A model generated the notes under the pieces. That model had not been told where the DNA came from and made no database searches. It saw only the letters and a list, made by a program, of their open reading frames with translations. The position numbers and the translations under genes were made by a program. 64,000 bases of DNA from Gammaproteobacteria bacterium (GTDB lineage: Bacteria > Pseudomonadota > Gammaproteobacteria > Pseudomonadales > Cellvibrionaceae): NCBI GenBank assembly GCA_004172865.1, contig SEBV01000006.1, forward strand, positions 124,001 through 188,000, given 5' to 3'. Each line of letters starts with the position of its first letter. Position 1 is the first letter of the stretch. Below are positions 39,064 through 48,235 of this stretch, piece by piece.

Positions 39064-40152
39064 ATGACACAGACAAGCATTGAATTATTAAAAGTATGGT
39101 TCATCTTTTCATTCAGTTTAGGATGCTGGACATGCATTAATTTATTAGTGAGTCGCCGTGGAGATAAGCGTGTCAAATACACCATTCTCAGTTTAATTTT
39201 ATTGCTACTCGTGCCGCCCCTCAATGCCTATGTTAATTTAATTAGCCCTGAACCAATTCATTGGTTACTTATACTTAGCCAAAAATTAACCTGGGTATAT
39301 GGCCCAGTGATGGTTGTGCTAATACGCCACATTTTATTGCGACCTATCAGCCGTCTAAGCTATACACTGCAAGCCTTACCCCTTTTAATTTCCGTTACTC
39401 ATGACTCATTAAATCTGCAATGGATAAGCTCCCCTATATTGATATCACTTTTATTTATTCAAGTGTTTTGTTACCTCGCTTACGCAGCGTGGCTACTAAA
39501 ATCTGAACGAGCGCAATTGCTAAAATTGACAACGCAATTTAAAAATACGTCTTACTATTGGTTGATCTATTTAATCGCCAGCTTATTTTTAGTTATGTTA
39601 ATTGATGTTTCTGTGCTTACCAGCATGCTCATGAGTTACATACCTTCATTTGTTGCACTCGCCGCTATCGCCAGTTTTATAGCAATTTTTATCAATAGCA
39701 TAGCGTTGTTTTCCATTTATCAGCCCAATGTCTTTTTTCATGAAGTCGGCGAACCAAACGAAAATCCGATGACAGAAAAACAACATTTGCGAAGCATTGA
39801 ATTGAGTCCTGAAGCGGCCAAACAATTAGACGAACAATTAGCTGAATTAGTAAAAAACCATAAACCACATTTAGATGAAGATATTTCATTACCAAAACTT
39901 GCTTCACTGTTAGGCGTTACCAGCCATCAGCTTTCAGAACTGTTAAATATTCACAAATCCACTAGCTTTTACGATTTTCTAAACGATCTGCGCTATCAAG
40001 AATCATTACATTTTTTAACTGCCAATGAAGGCGAATTAACAATTTCGGATATCGCTTATCGCTCCGGCTTTAACAATCGCAATAGTTTTTATAAAGTCTT
40101 TAAGGAAAAAACTGGACTCACGCCCAGCCAATATAAAAAATCCGTCGGTTAA
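39064..40152 (+). CDS. AraC-family regulator with N-terminal membrane domain
   Basis: The 362-residue protein has about seven hydrophobic segments in residues 1-225 and an AraC-type double helix-turn-helix at about 265-360. The second HTH shows [33 protein letters not shown] (in part [18 protein letters not shown]), the family signature. Such membrane-bound AraC proteins are thought to sense an envelope signal and bind DNA while anchored. Targets are unknown; the secreted duplicated protein upstream is a candidate by proximity. ATG at 39064 is the only start that keeps the first membrane segment. Confidence 0.88.
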
Positions 40153-40235
40153 CTTCTGCAAACACCTCAAGCGGCTGGAGCCACAAGTCACAAACCTGTA
40201 GAATCGCGGCATATTTACTATCGCCGGAATTCCAC

Positions 40236-41369
40236 ATGAGCATCACACCCACACTGCAACTTGCCATAGATTTAATTCGCTGCCGTTCAGTTACACCTGA
40301 AGATGATGGTTGCCAGGAAATGATGATAAAACGCCTTGAAGCCATTGGTTTTAAAACCGAGCGTTTACGTTTTGGGGAGGTCGATAATTTTTGGGCAGTG
40401 CGAGGAAATGAAGGCCCCATTTTGGCGTTCGCCGGTCATACCGATGTTGTACCCACCGGCCCGGAAACCAATTGGAATAATCCTCCCTTTGAGCCTCAAA
40501 TAATTGATGGCATGCTGCACGGTCGCGGTGCAGCTGACATGAAAGGTTCACTTGCATCTATGATTATTGCTTGTGAAAATTTTGTAGCAAAAAATCCTAA
40601 TCACAAAGGTCGCATTGCATTTTTGATTACCAGCGATGAAGAAGGTCCATCCGTTAACGGCACTGTAAAAGTTGTCGAGTGGCTGGAAGCGCGCAATACC
40701 AAAATGACCTGGTGCATTGTGGGCGAACCATCCAGCACCAATGTTGTTGGCGATGTTATTAAAAATGGTCGCCGCGGTTCGCTCGGTGCAATTTTAAAAG
40801 TGAAAGGTATTCAAGGCCATGTTGCTTACCCACACTTAGCTGATAATCCCATTCACAAGTTTTCTCCAGCGCTTGCAGAATTAACGGCCGAACATTGGGA
40901 TAATGGCAATGAATTTTTCCCCGCAACGAGTTTTCAAGTTTCAAATATAAATGGCGGCACCGGTGCTACTAATGTGATCCCCGGTGAACTCGAAGTCGTA
41001 TTTAATTTTCGCTTCTCTACCGAATTAACAGATCAAGTTTTACGTGAACGCACCGAAGCAATTCTCAATAAACACAATGTAAATTATGATCTGCAATGGA
41101 TTTTGAGCGGGCAAGCATTTTTAACACCGCGCGGTGATTTGGTAAATGCGGTTGTTGATGCGATTAAATCTGAAGTTGGTTTGAATGCAGAACTTTCAAC
41201 ATCTGGTGGCACATCTGATGGTCGCTTTATAGCGCCAACGGGTGCACAGGTTGTTGAACTCGGGCCGATTAATGCGACCATCCATAAAGTAAATGAATGC
41301 ATTAGTGCGGACGATTTAAATAAGCTGACTGGCATTTATGAAAAAACGCTGGAAAATTTATTAGCGTAA
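40236..41369 (+). CDS. dapE: Succinyl-diaminopimelate desuccinylase
   Basis: DapE hydrolyses N-succinyl-LL-DAP to succinate and LL-DAP; it is a di-zinc M20 metallopeptidase-like enzyme. The 377 residues have the zinc motif [34 protein letters not shown] with the catalytic Glu, and the C-terminal [21 protein letters not shown]. The length is typical. It completes the dapC-dapD-dapE set but is separated from dapD by the YebC-family gene, a secreted protein and a regulator. Confidence 0.96.
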
Positions 41370-41498
41370 TGAAAAAATCATGTTTTGTTCAGCTCTTCGC
41401 GGCCATGAAAACTATCGCCTTGGCTTCATAATTTTTATTATTGTAATCACGTAGTCTATTTATATTTTTTCAACTCACTTAAATCACGGAGTAGACAA

Positions 41499-42563
41499 AT
41501 GAAAAATTTAGTGTGGTGCAAACATCTCTTGTTGTGTGCAGCAGCGAGTTTTTTAACGTTGGCGACGCCAACTTTTGCCGAAGAAGGTAACGATCATCCC
41601 ATGGTGAATCGCTATCCTGGCACTAAAATTAGCCACTACGACTTTAAAGAATTCGAAGAAGCCCAATTGCTGCTCAGCAAACCTTATGAATCTAACGGCA
41701 AATGGGTGGCAGATAAAGTGCTTCCGCTAGAGGGGCAAGTTACCTATATCCATTACAGCAAACCCGATACTGTATCCGCCTTACAAGTATTTCGAAATTA
41801 CCAAACGTCCCTAACTAAAAGCGGATTCACTGAACTCTTTGCTTGTAATCGCCCTTGCACTGACGCCAACATTGGCGCCTTTAAAGATTTGCTGAAGGCG
41901 CGCGGCTTGTACCTTAACTATGCAACTGACAACCAATACTTAGCCGCACAAAAAGGCAATGTGTATGTATCTATGTTTGTGAATGATGGCGGCGTGTGGC
42001 AATTCGTAATAGAACAAGGCCAAATGGATACTGGGAAAATTAAAGTAAATGGTAACAGCCCTATTGCCAATGCACTTAGCCAATCAGGCCGCGTAGATGT
42101 TTATGGGTTAACATTTAATACAGGTAAATCGAGTTTAAAATCAACTTCAAAAACAACACTGACCGAGTTGTCTCAAATTTTAAATGACAATCCGCAATTG
42201 AATTTGGATGTTATTGGCCATACCGACAATGTAGGCAGCGCAGAATCAAATTTAAAATTGTCGCAAGAAAGAAGTGAAGCTGTTATTGCGGCGCTTTCGA
42301 GTGAATATGGCATTAACCCAACTCGTTTAAATCCAATCGGAAAAGGACAAAGTCAACCTATTGGCAGCAATGACACAGAAAAAGGCAAAGCAACAAATCG
42401 TCGTGTTGAATTTGTAGTGCAAGCAAATAGTACAGCGCAAGCTTCAACAGGCAACGCACAAGATTCAGCTTCTACTGAAGAAAAACCGAAAGAAAAAGAG
42501 AAAAAAAAGGTAGATGTGGATAAAGCGCTGGATACTGCCAAAAAATTGCGTTCATTATTTTAA
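41499..42563 (+). CDS. OmpA-family outer-membrane protein with DUF4892-like N-terminal domain
   Basis: The 354-residue exported protein has a signal peptide (1-27, ending TFA), an N-terminal domain (about 33-180) that resembles DUF4892, and a C-terminal OmpA peptidoglycan-binding domain (about 200-310). The OmpA part shows DVIGHTDNVGSAESNLKLSQERS and NRRVEFVV. A charged tail (about 325-345, rich in Lys and Glu) follows, ending KKLRSLF. It probably anchors the envelope to peptidoglycan from the outer membrane or periplasm. It is monocistronic, with its own terminator. Confidence 0.86.
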   Translation: MKNLVWCKHLLLCAAASFLTLATPTFAEEGNDHPMVNRYPGTKISHYDFKEFEEAQLLLSKPYESNGKWVADKVLPLEGQVTYIHYSKPDTVSALQVFRNYQTSLTKSGFTELFACNRPCTDANIGAFKDLLKARGLYLNYATDNQYLAAQKGNVYVSMFVNDGGVWQFVIEQGQMDTGKIKVNGNSPIANALSQSGRVDVYGLTFNTGKSSLKSTSKTTLTELSQILNDNPQLNLDVIGHTDNVGSAESNLKLSQERSEAVIAALSSEYGINPTRLNPIGKGQSQPIGSNDTEKGKATNRRVEFVVQANSTAQASTGNAQDSASTEEKPKEKEKKKVDVDKALDTAKKLRSLF

Positions 42564-42570
42564 TAAATAC

Positions 42571-42600
42571 AGGGCTTAGCGATCAACTAAGCCCTTTTTT
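42571..42600 (+). terminator. Rho-independent terminator after OmpA-family gene
   Basis: AGGGCTTAG (42571-42579) pairs with CTAAGCCCT (42587-42595) around CGATCAA and is followed by a T-run. It separates the OmpA-family gene from the convergent MFS gene. Confidence 0.92.
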
Positions 42601-42608
42601 AACAAGCT

Positions 42609-43808
42609 TCAACTAACTGCTTTAACTTTTGCTGCGGTAAAAATTGCAACCAAGCTTACAACGCAAGCTATATATCCCACCCAATCGTAATGCAAAATTT
42701 CACCGCTTGGCGCTTTCACCATAATCGCACCTGCAACTAAAGCTGCCGTACCAGAGCCAAAATTTTGAACTGCAGAGCTGAATGCCATCACTCGTCCACG
42801 ATAACGCGGCTCGCAAGATGCAGTTATTAGTGCAGACACCGGAATAAAACGACCACTTACAAAAACAAAAAATAGTGTCGATATCACAAGCTGAAAAACA
42901 AAAGCGGTGTGTAGGGTTTGTGTTATTAAAATAATGGGGATAAAACTTAACACGGACATTATCGCCAATACTTTCCAATGCTTGTGTTTGTCAGTCATGC
43001 GACCAATGACCGGGCGAGTGAACAAAGTAGCAATTCCACCGCACAAATAAATGTAAGGTAAATCGTGATCGGTCAAACCGGCATTTGACACCATTGTGGG
43101 AGCAATATAAGGAATTACCATAAAGCCAGCGAACATGACTAAACAGGAAGTTGCAAAGGCCCACCAGTGATTTGAAATGCTAAATAATTCCGCATAACTT
43201 CTGAAAAAATTTACCCTCGGCTGATTCAAATGACCACGCACACTTGGCACAACTTTATAAGCAACAATTAATACCGCAACACCTGAGTAAGCCAGAAAGC
43301 TAAATGGTGTTTGCCATGTGAAGTGAGTGGAAATAAATAAACCGAGAGGAACGCCTGCAATAGCCGCCAATGAAAAAGCGAGCATTACAATTCCCATGGC
43401 CTTACCGCGTTTGTTTGGTGGAAAAACATCGCCCACTATTGCAAGCACGATTGAGCTTAAAACACCGCCAAAAAATCCCGCAATAATTCGCGCAACTAAA
43501 AGTAATTCAAAGGTATTAGCATAAGCGCATGCAAGCGTTGCAACGAGCAAGCCCACAAAAGCAAACAGCAAAGCATTGCGACGATCGAAACGATCTCCTA
43601 ACGACGATGCGAGCAAAGAAGAAACGCCCGCAGCAATTGAATAAGACGACACAAGCAAACCAAAATGCGTAGGCTGGATTTGAAACACTGCCATCAACTG
43701 CGATGACAGCGGCATAATAATCATGAAGTCTACAATCATAATGAATTGCAGCGCCATAAGCGTAAACAACATGATGCGCTCACGCGCAGGAGAAAGCTCA
43801 AGGGACAT
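42609..43808 (-). CDS. MFS transporter (drug/arabinose efflux type)
   Basis: The 399-residue protein has about twelve membrane segments. The motif between helices 2 and 3, SLGDRFDRRNALLFAF, is the MFS loop signature, and VLAIVGDVFPPNKRGKAMGIV is a second. It is of the DHA1-type proton-driven exporter group; the substrate is unknown. It is convergent with the OmpA-family gene and divergent from the small ORF at 43956. The stop lies close to the shared terminator. Confidence 0.88.
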   Translation of the reverse strand: MSLELSPARERIMLFTLMALQFIMIVDFMIIMPLSSQLMAVFQIQPTHFGLLVSSYSIAAGVSSLLASSLGDRFDRRNALLFAFVGLLVATLACAYANTFELLLVARIIAGFFGGVLSSIVLAIVGDVFPPNKRGKAMGIVMLAFSLAAIAGVPLGLFISTHFTWQTPFSFLAYSGVAVLIVAYKVVPSVRGHLNQPRVNFFRSYAELFSISNHWWAFATSCLVMFAGFMVIPYIAPTMVSNAGLTDHDLPYIYLCGGIATLFTRPVIGRMTDKHKHWKVLAIMSVLSFIPIILITQTLHTAFVFQLVISTLFFVFVSGRFIPVSALITASCEPRYRGRVMAFSSAVQNFGSGTAALVAGAIMVKAPSGEILHYDWVGYIACVVSLVAIFTAAKVKAVS

Positions 43809-43906
43809 AAATTTCTCAACGGAAGGGATTTATTAGAAAGAGTCAGAGGGCAGTTTATAGAAAATACATATCCAATTGCCAATGACGGATGTAATAAGGT
43901 TTAATA

Positions 43907-43930
43907 CTTTTACCTCAAATGAGGTGAAAG
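43907..43930. promoter_or_regulatory. Inverted repeat upstream of the small ORF
   Basis: CTTTTACCTCA (43907-43917) and TGAGGTGAAAG (43920-43930) form an 11-base inverted repeat with a 2-base centre and one G-T mismatch. It lies between the divergent MFS gene and the small ORF, 16 bases before that ORF's GGAGG. It could be an operator for either gene or a 5' hairpin of the small message. Confidence 0.5.
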
Positions 43931-43955
43931 GTGTATTTATTTAAACGGAGGCTAT

Positions 43956-44129
43956 ATGCCCAAGAAACAGGAAAGACGTAACGGACATGCATTCCACCCG
44001 ATTATGAGTAAAGGTGGCGTGCATGAAAAAACTGAAAAAGCAAAACGAAAAGCGGCCAGGCAAGACCTGAAACGCAAAATTCAAGAGCTGCCTGGCAGCT
44101 CTTTTTATTTGGCCAAACTAGTAGCCTGA
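43956..44129 (+). CDS. Small basic protein, 57 codons, with terminator inside the coding region
   Basis: This short ORF begins MPKKQERRNGHAFHPIMSK and has a strong GGAGG 5 bases before the ATG. The first 43 residues are very basic (Lys/Arg/His-rich, with a GGVHEKTEKAKRKAARQ stretch). The last ten (about 48-57) are hydrophobic, ending Lys-Leu-Val-Ala. A perfect terminator hairpin spans codons 43-49, with the T-run at codons 49-52, so most transcripts should end before the TGA and lack a stop codon. That is the arrangement of ArfA ribosome-rescue genes, but the protein lacks the ArfA KKGKGS motif. Function is not known; a tmRNA-controlled role is inference. Confidence 0.72.
   Translation: MPKKQERRNGHAFHPIMSKGGVHEKTEKAKRKAARQDLKRKIQELPGSSFYLAKLVA
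44083..44110 (+). terminator. Rho-independent terminator inside the small ORF
   Basis: AGAGCTGC (44084-44091) pairs perfectly with GCAGCTCT (44095-44102) around CTG, with one more A-T pair possible at the base. TTTTTATTT follows (44102-44110). The stop codon of the ORF is at 44127-44129, downstream of the predicted end of the RNA. On the minus strand the T-run is weaker, so it may only partly serve the convergent gene. Confidence 0.85.
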
Positions 44130-44132
44130 AAA

Positions 44133-45218
44133 TTATCCCATCGTTTTTTGTTGCAGCTTTTTTTGTATCTTTTGTTGCAGATAAGGAATAATTTTTTGAT
44201 GATGCAAAATCCAACCACCAATAAGACCTATCATACTACCCAAGGCAATATCACCCAAACGGGTAACAACCAGCGATTCATGCAACACTCGCGACGCGGA
44301 ACCTTCTGCCAATAATAATGTAAGCGGCGTGATAAAAATGACCGCTAAACCGTAATGATGAACCACCAATATTTCTACAACAAAAAATAAAATAATAATT
44401 GCCAACGCAAATGTCCAGCCATGTAAGGATTGCGAAAAAATACACCACGCCAATCCCATACCTAAAACTGTACCTGCTATACGGTGAACCTGACGCTGCC
44501 AAACCAAGGTAAATGTTGCGCCCTGCATAATTGCAGCGCAGGAAATGGGCACCCAATAAGGTTTATTTAAACCAATCGTTTCCGCAATTAAATAGGAACC
44601 ACCGACAAATAAACCAAACACAATCGATTGCAATACAATTCGAAGTGTATTTTTTTCTACGGGCGCTATGGGATTAGGTGCAGGCAGCGTAACGAATAAG
44701 CTATAAAAAAATGCGAGCAAGCAAGATAACATGCAACCCAGGGCAACCAAACCAACCCGCATTGGAATGAGCTCTACCGCAAATGGAAGTGTGCAGCCGA
44801 GTGCTGCGAGAAAAATAAAAAAGAAATTGCCGGGCGCAGGCATTGAATAATAGCGACAAATAAAATCCACCAAGATCGCTGTAAATAGCAAAGCAATTGC
44901 AGACGTATAAATACTAAAACCCGCGCCCAAACCCAAGGTAAAACACGCAACAATTCCAAACGAACAAACAGCAAGCGTCACCATGCGGTGCGGAATACTG
45001 GTGCGCGGAATATAAAGAATCACCATTGACCCAACGCACGCGAGAATCGCATTGGCCATCTGCTCGAAATAAACACCCAGCAACGCAGGAATCGCCATGC
45101 CGATGGTTGCTACTAAAGCCACATGCCAAGGGCGACTAGGTTTGTTCAACACGAATAACGATTTTATATTTTGCTTACGTTGCTGCACCCAGGTTGATTG
45201 CGATTCGGGATTATCCAT
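44133..45218 (-). CDS. FUSC-family (fusaric acid resistance-like) membrane protein
   Basis: The 361-residue protein has about ten membrane segments arranged as two similar halves, as in the FUSC/aromatic-acid exporter family (AaeB, YccS-like). The second half contains KPYWVPISCAAIMQGATF and RIAGTVLGMGLAW, which match the FUSC_2 signature. The substrate is unknown; family members export aromatic acids or act in envelope stress. It converges on the small ORF, whose stop is 3 bases away. Confidence 0.84.
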   Translation of the reverse strand: MDNPESQSTWVQQRKQNIKSLFVLNKPSRPWHVALVATIGMAIPALLGVYFEQMANAILACVGSMVILYIPRTSIPHRMVTLAVCSFGIVACFTLGLGAGFSIYTSAIALLFTAILVDFICRYYSMPAPGNFFFIFLAALGCTLPFAVELIPMRVGLVALGCMLSCLLAFFYSLFVTLPAPNPIAPVEKNTLRIVLQSIVFGLFVGGSYLIAETIGLNKPYWVPISCAAIMQGATFTLVWQRQVHRIAGTVLGMGLAWCIFSQSLHGWTFALAIIILFFVVEILVVHHYGLAVIFITPLTLLLAEGSASRVLHESLVVTRLGDIALGSMIGLIGGWILHHQKIIPYLQQKIQKKLQQKTMG

Positions 45219-45310
45219 AACGTCTGACGCTCTTTGGGATCGATAACTGCATTATTCACATGGAAGCAAGGCTTGTCACGCTCATATAATTTTGTAACTT
45301 GTTTGATAAT

Positions 45311-45348
45311 AAAAAAGGCGAATCATCTTTCAATGATTCGCCTTTTTT
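45311..45348 (-). terminator. Bidirectional terminator after the GH2 gene
   Basis: AAGGCGAATCAT (45315-45326) pairs with ATGATTCGCCTT (45333-45344) around a 6-base loop, with six A before and six T after. It lies 17 bases after the GH2 stop. Confidence 0.93.
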
Positions 45349-45364
45349 GCTTTAAACGCAGAAC

Positions 45365-48235
45365 TTACTTTTTCGGTTGGATAATCACATTCCCATCCAC
45401 ACCGGCTTTTGTTTCACCCTCGCCTTCAACAATGACATTGAGTTGACGATTGCCTTCGCCGGCTGGAATTACAACATTCAGCGGTGCAGGAGCAGCGGTG
45501 GTTTTTTTGGCGAGCAGTGTTCCGTTCAACCAAATTTCAGCTTTACCGGTGATGCTTGCAAAATGGATTTGCCCGTTGCCATCCGCAAGTGTTTTACGCG
45601 GTGTGAAGTTGGTGCGGTATAAGCGATACACACCACCTTTTACTTCTGCAGGAACATTCAACATGGGCGGCTGGCCCCAACCCCAGGTGTTCATGTCGTT
45701 GTCTGCTCTAACCTGATTAGGATCGGGACGCTCTACACTGGCTGGCGATACGCGCCAATTCGTGAGGTAGCTGAGCGGAGCTGCAGAGGCTGGCACAAAT
45801 GGAATGGCATCCACAGATTTAACAGGAATGCTAACGCTGGCAGTTTTCAAACCTGGAGCACTGGCGGTGACTTTAAGGCTGCCTTTGCTTTCAAAGTTTG
45901 ACTGCACGATTAACTGTGCAAGACCATTGAATAGCTGGCGAGTTTTACCTTTTTCATCTTCATGAGAATTGGGGTTGCCATTGCCGTGACCGATGGATTT
46001 GCCCGCGCCGCTGATGTCAAAAGTAACTTCTGAATTGTCGATAGGAACGGCGCGGCCTTTTGCATCCAGAGCACGCACTGTGATTGGCATTGCATCGCGG
46101 CCATCGCCCGCCAGAGTTTTACGATCTGGAACTAATTCCAGCGCAACAGCTTTGCCAGTGGTTTCAACAACTGCACGGGCAACTTCCTTATCGCCATTAA
46201 AACCAATAGCTTCGAGCTTGCCGGGCTCGTAATTCACGTTGAAGTAATTCATGCGGTAGTTATCAACCTTTTGTTCGCCAAGGTCGCGGTCATTGAGCAC
46301 GAGTTTCACGCGCTCAACGTTCGCCATCACCATAACGCGAATCTCGGTGCCTTCTTTGCCAGCCCAATTCCAATGCGGTGCAAGGTAAACCAATGGACGA
46401 TCTTTAATCCATTGCACCTGGTGAATGTAGTAGGCATCTTTCGGGAAGCCGTTGAGATCCATAATGCCGAATACCGAACTGACCGATGGCCATTCGTTAG
46501 GTGTTGGCTCACCGCGATAATCGAAGCCAGTCCACACAAATCCGCCCGCTACGTAATCGCGTGTGTCGATGGCTTCCCAAGCATCACGATGGCTATTGCC
46601 CCATTGCGCGAAATCATCGTCGTAACTGGCGATCAGATTTTTGCTTTTGTCAGTCGTGTATTCACCGCGTGTCATAAATGCAGAAGTGTCTTCCGAGCTG
46701 GTAAAGGGAACGTCCGGGCGAGCCTTATGGAAACGGTCGTAATCTGGAACTTGGTAGTTCGCACCCAACACGTCCACCGCGTGTGACACGTTGAGTTCGC
46801 TGAAGAAGCCGCCGTTCATCGCTGCAGTAACGGGGCGCGTGTCATCCAAAGATTTCACAACAGCCGACATACGACGAACCATTTCATAGCCCACTTCAGA
46901 ACCTTGCACCGGCTCTTCGTTAAATACTGACCAAAGAATTACGCCGGGGTGATGACGGTCACGGCGCACCATCCACTCAAGTTGCTTCATATAATCGGGC
47001 GATGGATTGAAGTTGCGGTTTTCGTCCATCACCACAAAGCCCATACGGTCGACCAAATCCAGCATTTCAGATGCAGGCGCGTTGTGCGAGAAGCGAATGG
47101 CATTCACGCCCAGCTCTTTCAAGCGACGTAGGCGGTATTCCAAAATTGAATCCGGCACGGCAACACCAACACCGGCATGGTCTTGGTGAATACAAACGCC
47201 TTTAAGTTTGACGTGTTGGTTGTTGAGGAAGAAACCTTGTGATGCATCAAAACGAATGCTGCGAAAGCCGGTGTTAAGCGAGGTTTCATCAACCTTTTTA
47301 CCATTTTGAACCACCTGCGTTATAACACGATACAAGTTGGTTTTTTCAATCGACCACAACGCCGGTGCGCTAATTGAGATTGGAATTTGCGCTGTCGCTT
47401 GGGCAAGTACAGGTACTGTGACGCTTTTTGATTGCTTGGCGATTTGCTTACCTTGCGGGTCAAATACTGCAACTTCAACGCTCACGTCTGCCGCTTGTTT
47501 ACCGCTGTTATCAAGCGTGACTTCAACTGGAATTTGCCAGTTGCCATCGAGTTTTTCATCCAGCTGACGCGGTGTAGCGTGAACACCGTCGGTAACAATA
47601 TGGACAGGATTGGTTTTCACCAGCCAGGCATGGCGGTACATACCTGCGCCCTCGTACCACCAACCTTCCATAGGGTTGGCGTCGGCACGAATGGCGATGG
47701 TATTCATCGCATCACCGTAGCGTAAGTAGGGAGTGATATCGATGTAGCTGGAGTTGTAACCAGACCAATTGCGACTCACCACATTGCCGTTTATCCAAAC
47801 AGTGGAATGGGTGGCGATGGCATCGAACTGCAACTCAAAGTGGCGGCCACGTTCGCTTGCATCCACCCGTAAATAACGGCGATACCAGGATGCGCCACGT
47901 GGGCGATAACCTTGGGAAATATTAGCGTTGGGATCAAACGGACCTTCAACCGCCCAGTCGTGTGGAAGATTTAATTCACGCCAGCCCGAGTCATCATACT
48001 CGGTAGCCGCTGCACCACCGGCACTGCCAGCTTTGGCGTTCATATAGGATTCGCCGTGACCTTTCACTTCGGGCATGACTATATCGCCCAGATGAAATAA
48101 CCAACCGCGGTCGAGCGAAAGACGTTCGCGACCGTCTTCAACCTTGGTATTAGCAGCGTGTGCAAAATTGGCGATTAAACCGATTGCGGCCAAAAGCCCC
48201 AACCAGCGACGAGATAAGCCGTGGTGTTTATACAT
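45365..48235 (-). CDS. Secreted GH2 beta-galactosidase-like glycoside hydrolase
   Basis: This exported GH2 enzyme has 956 residues from the ATG at 48235 (GAGAG 5 bases before). A signal peptide (1-27) is followed by a sugar-binding domain (about 38-210), an immunoglobulin-like domain (about 212-325) and a TIM barrel (about 330-600). The acid/base Glu440 lies in VFNEEP and the likely nucleophile Glu515 in FTSSED. A DUF4982-like domain (about 625-690), an Ig-like repeat (about 700-810) and a C-terminal beta domain (about 820-956) complete it. The build fits beta-galactosidases that act on plant side chains; specificity is not proven. Confidence 0.92.
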   Translation of the reverse strand: MYKHHGLSRRWLGLLAAIGLIANFAHAANTKVEDGRERLSLDRGWLFHLGDIVMPEVKGHGESYMNAKAGSAGGAAATEYDDSGWRELNLPHDWAVEGPFDPNANISQGYRPRGASWYRRYLRVDASERGRHFELQFDAIATHSTVWINGNVVSRNWSGYNSSYIDITPYLRYGDAMNTIAIRADANPMEGWWYEGAGMYRHAWLVKTNPVHIVTDGVHATPRQLDEKLDGNWQIPVEVTLDNSGKQAADVSVEVAVFDPQGKQIAKQSKSVTVPVLAQATAQIPISISAPALWSIEKTNLYRVITQVVQNGKKVDETSLNTGFRSIRFDASQGFFLNNQHVKLKGVCIHQDHAGVGVAVPDSILEYRLRRLKELGVNAIRFSHNAPASEMLDLVDRMGFVVMDENRNFNPSPDYMKQLEWMVRRDRHHPGVILWSVFNEEPVQGSEVGYEMVRRMSAVVKSLDDTRPVTAAMNGGFFSELNVSHAVDVLGANYQVPDYDRFHKARPDVPFTSSEDTSAFMTRGEYTTDKSKNLIASYDDDFAQWGNSHRDAWEAIDTRDYVAGGFVWTGFDYRGEPTPNEWPSVSSVFGIMDLNGFPKDAYYIHQVQWIKDRPLVYLAPHWNWAGKEGTEIRVMVMANVERVKLVLNDRDLGEQKVDNYRMNYFNVNYEPGKLEAIGFNGDKEVARAVVETTGKAVALELVPDRKTLAGDGRDAMPITVRALDAKGRAVPIDNSEVTFDISGAGKSIGHGNGNPNSHEDEKGKTRQLFNGLAQLIVQSNFESKGSLKVTASAPGLKTASVSIPVKSVDAIPFVPASAAPLSYLTNWRVSPASVERPDPNQVRADNDMNTWGWGQPPMLNVPAEVKGGVYRLYRTNFTPRKTLADGNGQIHFASITGKAEIWLNGTLLAKKTTAAPAPLNVVIPAGEGNRQLNVIVEGEGETKAGVDGNVIIQPKK

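Follow-up and report, generated by a model that had tools for sequence, protein, structure and literature searches.

Two ribosome-rescue factors, ArfA and BrfA, are described in the sections of PMC8012679 and PMC6881298 that bear on them as products of nonstop mRNA that are repressed by trans-translation. Reviews and the BrfA paper (PMC6881298, PMC8012679), in corresponding sections, also raise the possibility that more release-factor-dependent rescue factors exist, beyond the reach of sequence similarity. In addition, Burroughs and Aravind suggest, in a section of PMC6514570, a possible role as ArfB-like tails for charged proteins found near RFH-RtcB. The window, the whole stretch of 64,000 nt analysed here, holds a small ORF with a predicted intrinsic terminator ahead of its stop codon. 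The parts of this ORF and its neighbours are as follows:

43956..44129, + strand: small ORF of 57 aa with an ATG start; its TGA (44127-44129) is codon 58; read from the sequence
43947..43951, + strand: ribosome-binding site GGAGG, 4 nt 5′ of the ATG; read from the sequence
43956..44087, + strand: conserved basic core, residues 1-44 (RNGHAFHPIMSKGGVHEKTEKAKRKAARQDLKRKIQE); from the relatives' matches, alignment A1 and dN < dS
44083..44103, + strand: predicted in-ORF terminator hairpin of 9 pairs (5 GC) with loop CTG, AAGAGCTGC-CTG-GCAGCTCTT; from the terminator scan and folding
44102..44110, + strand: T-run TTTTTATTT; read from the sequence, with the RNA 3′ end expected at about codon 51-52
44111..44129, + strand: coding tail 3′ of the terminator, ending LVA and then TGA; read from the sequence
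43907..43930, + strand: 10-pair hairpin in the 5′ region of the small ORF; from the terminator scan
42609..43808, - strand: divergent neighbour, MFS transporter (PF07690, E 1.8e-59)
44133..45218, - strand: convergent neighbour, FUSC-like membrane protein (PF13515, E 7e-25)

The predicted hairpin at 44083-44103 is followed by TTTATTTG, and hairpin and T-run together span codons 43-52 of the small ORF. Residues 1-44 of the protein contain 14 K+R against 5 D+E, and its C terminus reads ...AKLVA. An initial annotation of this DNA had noted a terminator hairpin with T-run in codons 43-52, a TGA as codon 58, a GGAGG ribosome site, a very basic N-terminal part and a Lys-Leu-Val-Ala end; all of these were found again, with a stem of 9 pairs. 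An AlphaFold2 model of moderate quality (pLDDT 77, pTM 0.42) predicts helices at residues 10-13, 27-44 and 48-56. A Foldseek search of the PDB with this model returned 0 matches, and an Rfam scan at the small-ORF locus gave no credible match.

A tblastn-type search found relatives of the window protein at E < 1e-10 in 14 of the 20 other genomes of the genus and no convincing family member in the remaining 6; one relative, at E 8e-8, belongs to a different family within the order. Most matches stop at residue 44-51, before or inside the hairpin. The conserved core of the family reads RNxxAxxPIMxKGGVHEKxxKAKR, and dN was lower than dS in 15 of the 15 core pairs compared. At least 56 loci came from a genome-contig scan, from Cellvibrio, Saccharophagus, Teredinibacter, Reinekea, Marinomonas, Kangiella, Marinicella, Thiodiazotropha, Lysobacterales and further groups, and a single betaproteobacterium (Andreprevotia) was among them. 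At a cut-off of E 0.001, the narrow profile found the family in 52 of the 390 genomes searched from the order, and the broad profile found it in 27 of the 369 from the class. When 68 family members were scanned, Pfam and NCBIfam gave nothing better than E 0.023 and E 0.013, respectively, and no member matched a Pfam repeat family. Furthermore, the family profile matched no PDB chain, the first 45 residues had no tblastn match in plasmids or phages at E 0.01, and no description of the family was found in the open PMC literature searched. Judged from these sequence comparisons, the small ORF is a real, selected gene of a family that has neither a Pfam nor an NCBIfam model and that is found across Gammaproteobacteria. 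The 3′ regions discussed below derive from 149 loci, which gave 126 distinct 3′ regions after near-identical ones were dropped; because these loci are mostly the first matches of longer lists (30 per search; 56 from the genome-contig scan), the 126 are not a random sample. Start codons of the relatives were picked by a simple rule, under which L098 has no start codon. When the 126 cores were placed on a tree, 27 label changes were counted; this number has no shuffled control and was left unused as evidence.

On its own, the hairpin in the window is unremarkable: 14 of 200 dinucleotide shuffles fold equally well or better (z -1.56), and a terminator scan of positions 40000-48000 found 12 sites against 10.9 expected. 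It rises above chance once relatives are considered: purifying selection acts on the coding core, and terminators inside the ORF recur among them. Such a recurrence in the 3′ coding ends of homologues, which the initial annotation had suggested looking for, stands well above both controls and synonymous recodings. In the strict test, which superseded a looser first count (58 of 86), a hairpin with dG <= -9 kcal/mol followed by at least 5 T in 8 had to precede the stop codon. By this measure 62 of the 126 listed 3′ regions have an in-ORF terminator, 10 have one behind the stop only and 54 have neither; among 262 other long ORFs from the same loci, matched for tail length, 14-16 scored, and 40 synonymous recodings gave a mean of 12.3 and a maximum of 20 of 126. 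At dG <= -12 the count was 51 of 126 versus 4, 5 and 5 of 262 in three control draws, with a mean of 3.2 and a maximum of 10 of 126 in 40 recodings, and at -14 it was 37 of 126 versus 1 of 262. Hairpins of -14 or below, counted regardless of a T-run, were present in 84 of 126 regions versus 42 of 262 controls (recoding mean 17.5). Hairpins at -10 kcal/mol separated non-terminator members poorly from controls (39 of 64 versus 117 of 262) and were not used as evidence. In the central 50% of cases the terminator stem reaches its end at residue 51-57; the full range is 48-75.

The window hairpin is in register with the GAGTGGC-GCCGCTC stem of its relatives, and the window copy carries one double compensatory change. 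Covariation of the stems was significant only in the Marinicella/Lysobacterales group (A4), where 3 pairs with 11 cells were changed on both sides and 0 of 500 shuffles reached the covariation score. It was marginal in the Thiodiazotropha group (A5; 2 pairs, 4 cells changed on both sides, 11 of 500 shuffles), whose hairpins have no T-run, and weak in the window's own group (A3), where the single pair is the one changed in the window's copy (36 of 500 shuffles).

The initial annotation had also held that homologues whose ORFs end before the terminator would speak against it. Such homologues do occur, as a minority (10 of 126), beside the 54 that have neither arrangement by the strict test. In the clade with a shared DWLSE end (L107, L183, L184 and L186) the terminator lies behind the stop only. 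Nonstop control, as predicted from these 3′ regions, is thus not universal in the family. Because about half of the regions fail the strict test and some clades have ordinary 3′ ends, gating may have been gained and lost several times, or the basic task of the family may be independent of it. Several loci have layouts of their own. L183, L184, L186 and L187 share an N-terminal extension and a conserved TDWLSE end, with rtcB 0.2-0.7 kb upstream, and three of these four have an ordinary terminator about 60 nt past the stop. The Cellvibrio relatives L003-L007 have the tail EWLDVKGG, and L003 has another 3′-end layout, a 41-nt hairpin of -22.7 kcal/mol with AAAAGGAGG in its loop and no T-run. At L051 (3127-3170) a hairpin of the Thiodiazotropha type has an in-frame TGA in its loop, so that the ORF stops within the hairpin, which sister loci read through.

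We also compared the reading frames across the terminator. Of 72 terminator-bearing members, 62 have a coding frame that stays open across it, versus 54 of 124 off-frames (the two other frames of the 62). The comparison is imperfectly matched, since openness was the criterion by which the 62 were selected and the other 10 came from a search of the 100 nt past the stop. From the T-run to the first stop the median distance is 12.5 codons in frame and 12.5 codons off frame (p 0.91). The first stop behind the terminator therefore looks to be at a chance position and unselected, and the frame through the terminator looks to have been kept open; both features agree with an mRNA that terminates at the hairpin. 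Since the position of the stop fits chance across the family, the coding tail of the window gene (44111..44129) is probably seldom transcribed. The degron-like tail that the initial annotation had seen in the final residues is weakly supported. C-terminal AA is enriched (11 of 126 members versus 3 of 262 control genes, with 9 of the 11 among the 64 members lacking a strict terminator; p 4e-4 and 4e-5), which hints at such a tail; mean hydrophobicity of the last six residues, in contrast, is hardly different (0.53 and 0.07 versus -0.09, sd 1.45) and gives no support to a general degron at the C terminus.

The initial annotation had further predicted an independent family without the KKGKGS motif of ArfA, and our searches agree. 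Pfam, including the ArfA model PF03889, matched neither the window protein nor the 68 members; ArfA was not found in the window's genome or in 36 relatives; the KGKGS motif is missing from the window protein and from the family consensus; and hhalign of the family against ArfA gave a probability of 0.1% (E 0.51), at the level of column-shuffled controls (0.1-1.7%). These results rule out membership in ArfA. Two likenesses noticed by eye were also rejected: that of [DH]P[IL][ML] to the DPLF of ArfA was given no support by hhalign, and for that of KGGVHEK/HDK to the SmpB tail the family profile gave no match to E. coli SmpB. At the level of gene anatomy, E. coli arfA served as positive control, and its in-ORF hairpin was recovered by the script used for the new family; of 22 further ArfA genes of the class (from 25 control loci, L158-L182, of which 3 without KGKGS were left out), 7 scored for an in-ORF terminator in the same test. 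By eye, 14 of the 15 that have no in-ORF T-run terminator end in AA, as if they encoded their own ssrA-like end.

The distribution of the two families was examined in the same genomes. Among 390 genomes of the order, 52 have the new family, 29 have ArfA and 0 have both (hypergeometric P 0.013, with kinship ignored); among 369 genomes of the class the figures are 27, 6 and 0. In 34 ArfA genomes the broad family profile gave 0 matches at E 0.001, the best being E 0.16. Four bacterial families (f34, f28, f78 and f97) hold the new family and ArfA in different genomes; f97, a single genus with four genomes, has ArfA in three of them and the new family in the remaining one. These counts suggest that the new family and ArfA exclude each other, although the zero overlap is weakly significant and partly phylogenetic.

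Clustering of neighbouring genes revealed a link to RNA repair, an addition to the initial annotation, which rested on the window alone. A protein of about 405 aa is common to 65 of the 126 listed loci and proved to be RtcB (PF01139, E 4e-129). In these 65 clustered cases rtcB is immediately upstream of the small gene, on its strand and no more than 250 nt away, in 46, and 318-740 nt upstream in 4; in 15 more, a gene for a protein of about 320 aa is directly upstream, with rtcB before it (in L086 rtcB is downstream of the small gene). Searching the 126 listed loci by tblastn gave rtcB in 71, the ~320-aa protein in 32 and either in 76, and no rtcB was found within the 0.2-3 kb upstream searched in 55, the window locus among them. 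The ~320-aa protein, seen beside rtcB and the small gene at L002, L062, L098, L140 and others, has no Pfam or NCBIfam match. Neither rtcB nor the ~320-aa gene was found in the 25 ArfA loci. The in-ORF terminator is equally common with rtcB (34 of 71) and without it (28 of 55). The letters GGQ occur in 15 neighbour ORFs of fewer than 420 aa at scattered loci, two of them the ~320-aa protein, and a recurrent PrfH was not seen in this letter search; the RtcB tested scored 145.5 against TIGR03073, the model of PrfH-linked RtcB, below the cut-off of 271.8. In the 1.83 Mb searched of the window's 5.25-Mb genome rtcB was not found, which says little because an E. coli SmpB query had no match there either.

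The rescue machinery of this genome was surveyed as well. Its only tmRNA match is a tmRNA-like gene of 222 nt (L023 1501-1722; C182:83926-84147) with the tag ANDDNYGAQLAA and a 3′ CCA. This gene is short and divergent, has no recognisable T arm, is followed by a strong terminator and receives no call from ARAGORN. A full tmRNA was not found in the assembly; an assembly gap is the likely cause, because relatives have full tmRNAs, and 20 of the 24 genomes examined, the window genome's weak match included, have a tmRNA match at E 1e-12. A third ORF with an RF-1 domain, 148 codons long, is ArfB-like, and the genome thus probably has ArfB as well, so that backup rescue may already exist. E. coli also has ArfB.

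Based on these results we propose, as the reading we hold to be reasonably probable, that the small protein is a tmRNA-gated ribosome-rescue factor, probably dependent on a release factor, whose mRNA lacks a stop codon and which is often linked to RNA repair. The initial annotation had called it a possible ArfA-type rescue factor of a new family; comparison largely upholds the notion that it works like ArfA and rejects the notion that it is ArfA. Gating by tmRNA is the natural reading because the anatomy of the gene matches that of ArfA and BrfA, and a role in rescue is suggested by the nonstop gating, the ArfA exclusion and the rtcB linkage, for which RtcB2-PrfH is a precedent. RNA polymerase would usually halt at the hairpin in codons 43-50, and because it stops there, ribosomes would reach the RNA end at about codon 51 with no stop codon met. 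With trans-translation working, tmRNA-SmpB would tag and remove the product; with trans-translation overloaded or absent, a product of about 50 residues would be released, build up and help to free stalled ribosomes. By analogy with ArfA and BrfA, its basic part would most likely enter the empty mRNA channel and bring in a release factor, RF1 or RF2. Ribosome binding is predicted from charge and analogy, since there is no sequence link to ArfA or SmpB and no PDB match. In the many relatives that co-encode it, RtcB would reseal RNA cut by the same damage. We tentatively extend this proposal to a damage-gated module of rescue and repair, possible though short of an even chance, in which an RtcB ligase, the ~320-aa protein and a nonstop-encoded small adaptor act together: failure to clear stranded ribosomes would switch on the factor that frees them, and RtcB would reseal the cut RNA.

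Other explanations have to be weighed against a rescue factor. The small gene might be an ordinary one, whose 3′ end is overlapped by chance by a plain or bidirectional terminator that has no regulatory nonstop use. The window gene itself would suit this view, with a convergent FUSC-like gene whose stop begins 3 nt past its TGA and a hairpin of low significance as a single case, as would the several clades with terminators behind the stop. Across the family, however, the 51 of 126 regions against 4-5 of 262 controls, a coding frame that stays open across the terminator much more often than the off-frames do, and the same anatomy in ArfA genes make this explanation very unlikely. Furthermore, 25 of the 58 terminator-bearing loci with a called neighbour are followed by a gene on the same strand, and the hairpin is for this reason rejected as a device of the convergent gene for the family as a whole. 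If the gating is accepted, the product could still be another kind of tmRNA-gated regulator, for instance an inhibitor of ribosomes or a hibernation-type factor, building up once trans-translation reaches saturation; nonstop gating by itself marks the product as a target of trans-translation and no more, and a small basic protein predicted to be helical suits many ribosome binders. We regard this as improbable, with only a slight chance of being right, in view of the exclusion of ArfA, the fact that the nonstop-encoded factors described in the parts of the literature consulted (ArfA, BrfA) are rescue factors, and the precedent, in the sources on PrfH cited below, for a rescue factor as partner of RtcB.

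Closer to the rescue reading is the idea that the small basic protein guides RtcB, together with the ~320-aa protein, to damaged ribosomes or tRNAs, being gated by tmRNA and releasing no peptide itself. The presence of rtcB in 71 of 126 loci, its same-strand place immediately upstream, at most 250 nt away, in 46 of the 65 clustered cases, the ~320-aa gene directly upstream in 15 more, and a nonstop anatomy that is alike beside rtcB and away from it all speak for such a partner. We nevertheless consider it rather unlikely: 55 of the 126 loci, including the window, show no rtcB in the 0.2-3 kb upstream, a search of 1.83 Mb of the window's genome turned up none, and the exclusion of ArfA points to a function that overlaps with that of ArfA.

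Were the product a rescue factor, the family would fill part of the rescue-factor gap in lineages without ArfA, the in-ORF terminator would be a usable search signal for rescue factors, and ribosome rescue would be tied to RtcB RNA repair via a small adaptor instead of PrfH. Were the module also to hold, rescue factors controlled by the lack of a stop codon in their own message would have arisen independently three times, with ArfA and BrfA as the two earlier cases, and this one, spread over much of Gammaproteobacteria, would be the first of them tied to RNA repair.

Among known systems, ArfA resembles the new family as a small basic protein with a terminator or hairpin inside the 3′ coding region; it differs in having no sequence relation to the new family, whose core is another one and lacks KGKGS, and in that rtcB, often beside the new family, is in none of the 25 ArfA loci. 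BrfA of Bacillus, as the relevant sections of PMC6881298 and PMC8012679 describe it, is likewise encoded by a short gene (72 codons) with an intrinsic terminator before the stop, is repressed by trans-translation and is active without its last residues. It is reported there from Bacillus only and has a cryo-EM structure, whereas the new family's profile finds no PDB chain; otherwise the two were compared by description. The same holds for ArfT of Francisella, a basic protein of about 40 aa with a KKGG-containing stretch that acts in rescue with RF1 or RF2; unlike the gene in the window, arfT is described in the relevant section of PMC6299226 as having no terminator or RNase III site before the stop. 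Finally, the RtcB2-PrfH (RFH) operon, in the sections of PMC9223846 and PMC6514570 that deal with it, places an RtcB ligase beside a rescue factor and repairs 16S rRNA cut by colicin E3; in the new family the partner of RtcB is not a release factor but a protein of 50 aa without GGQ.
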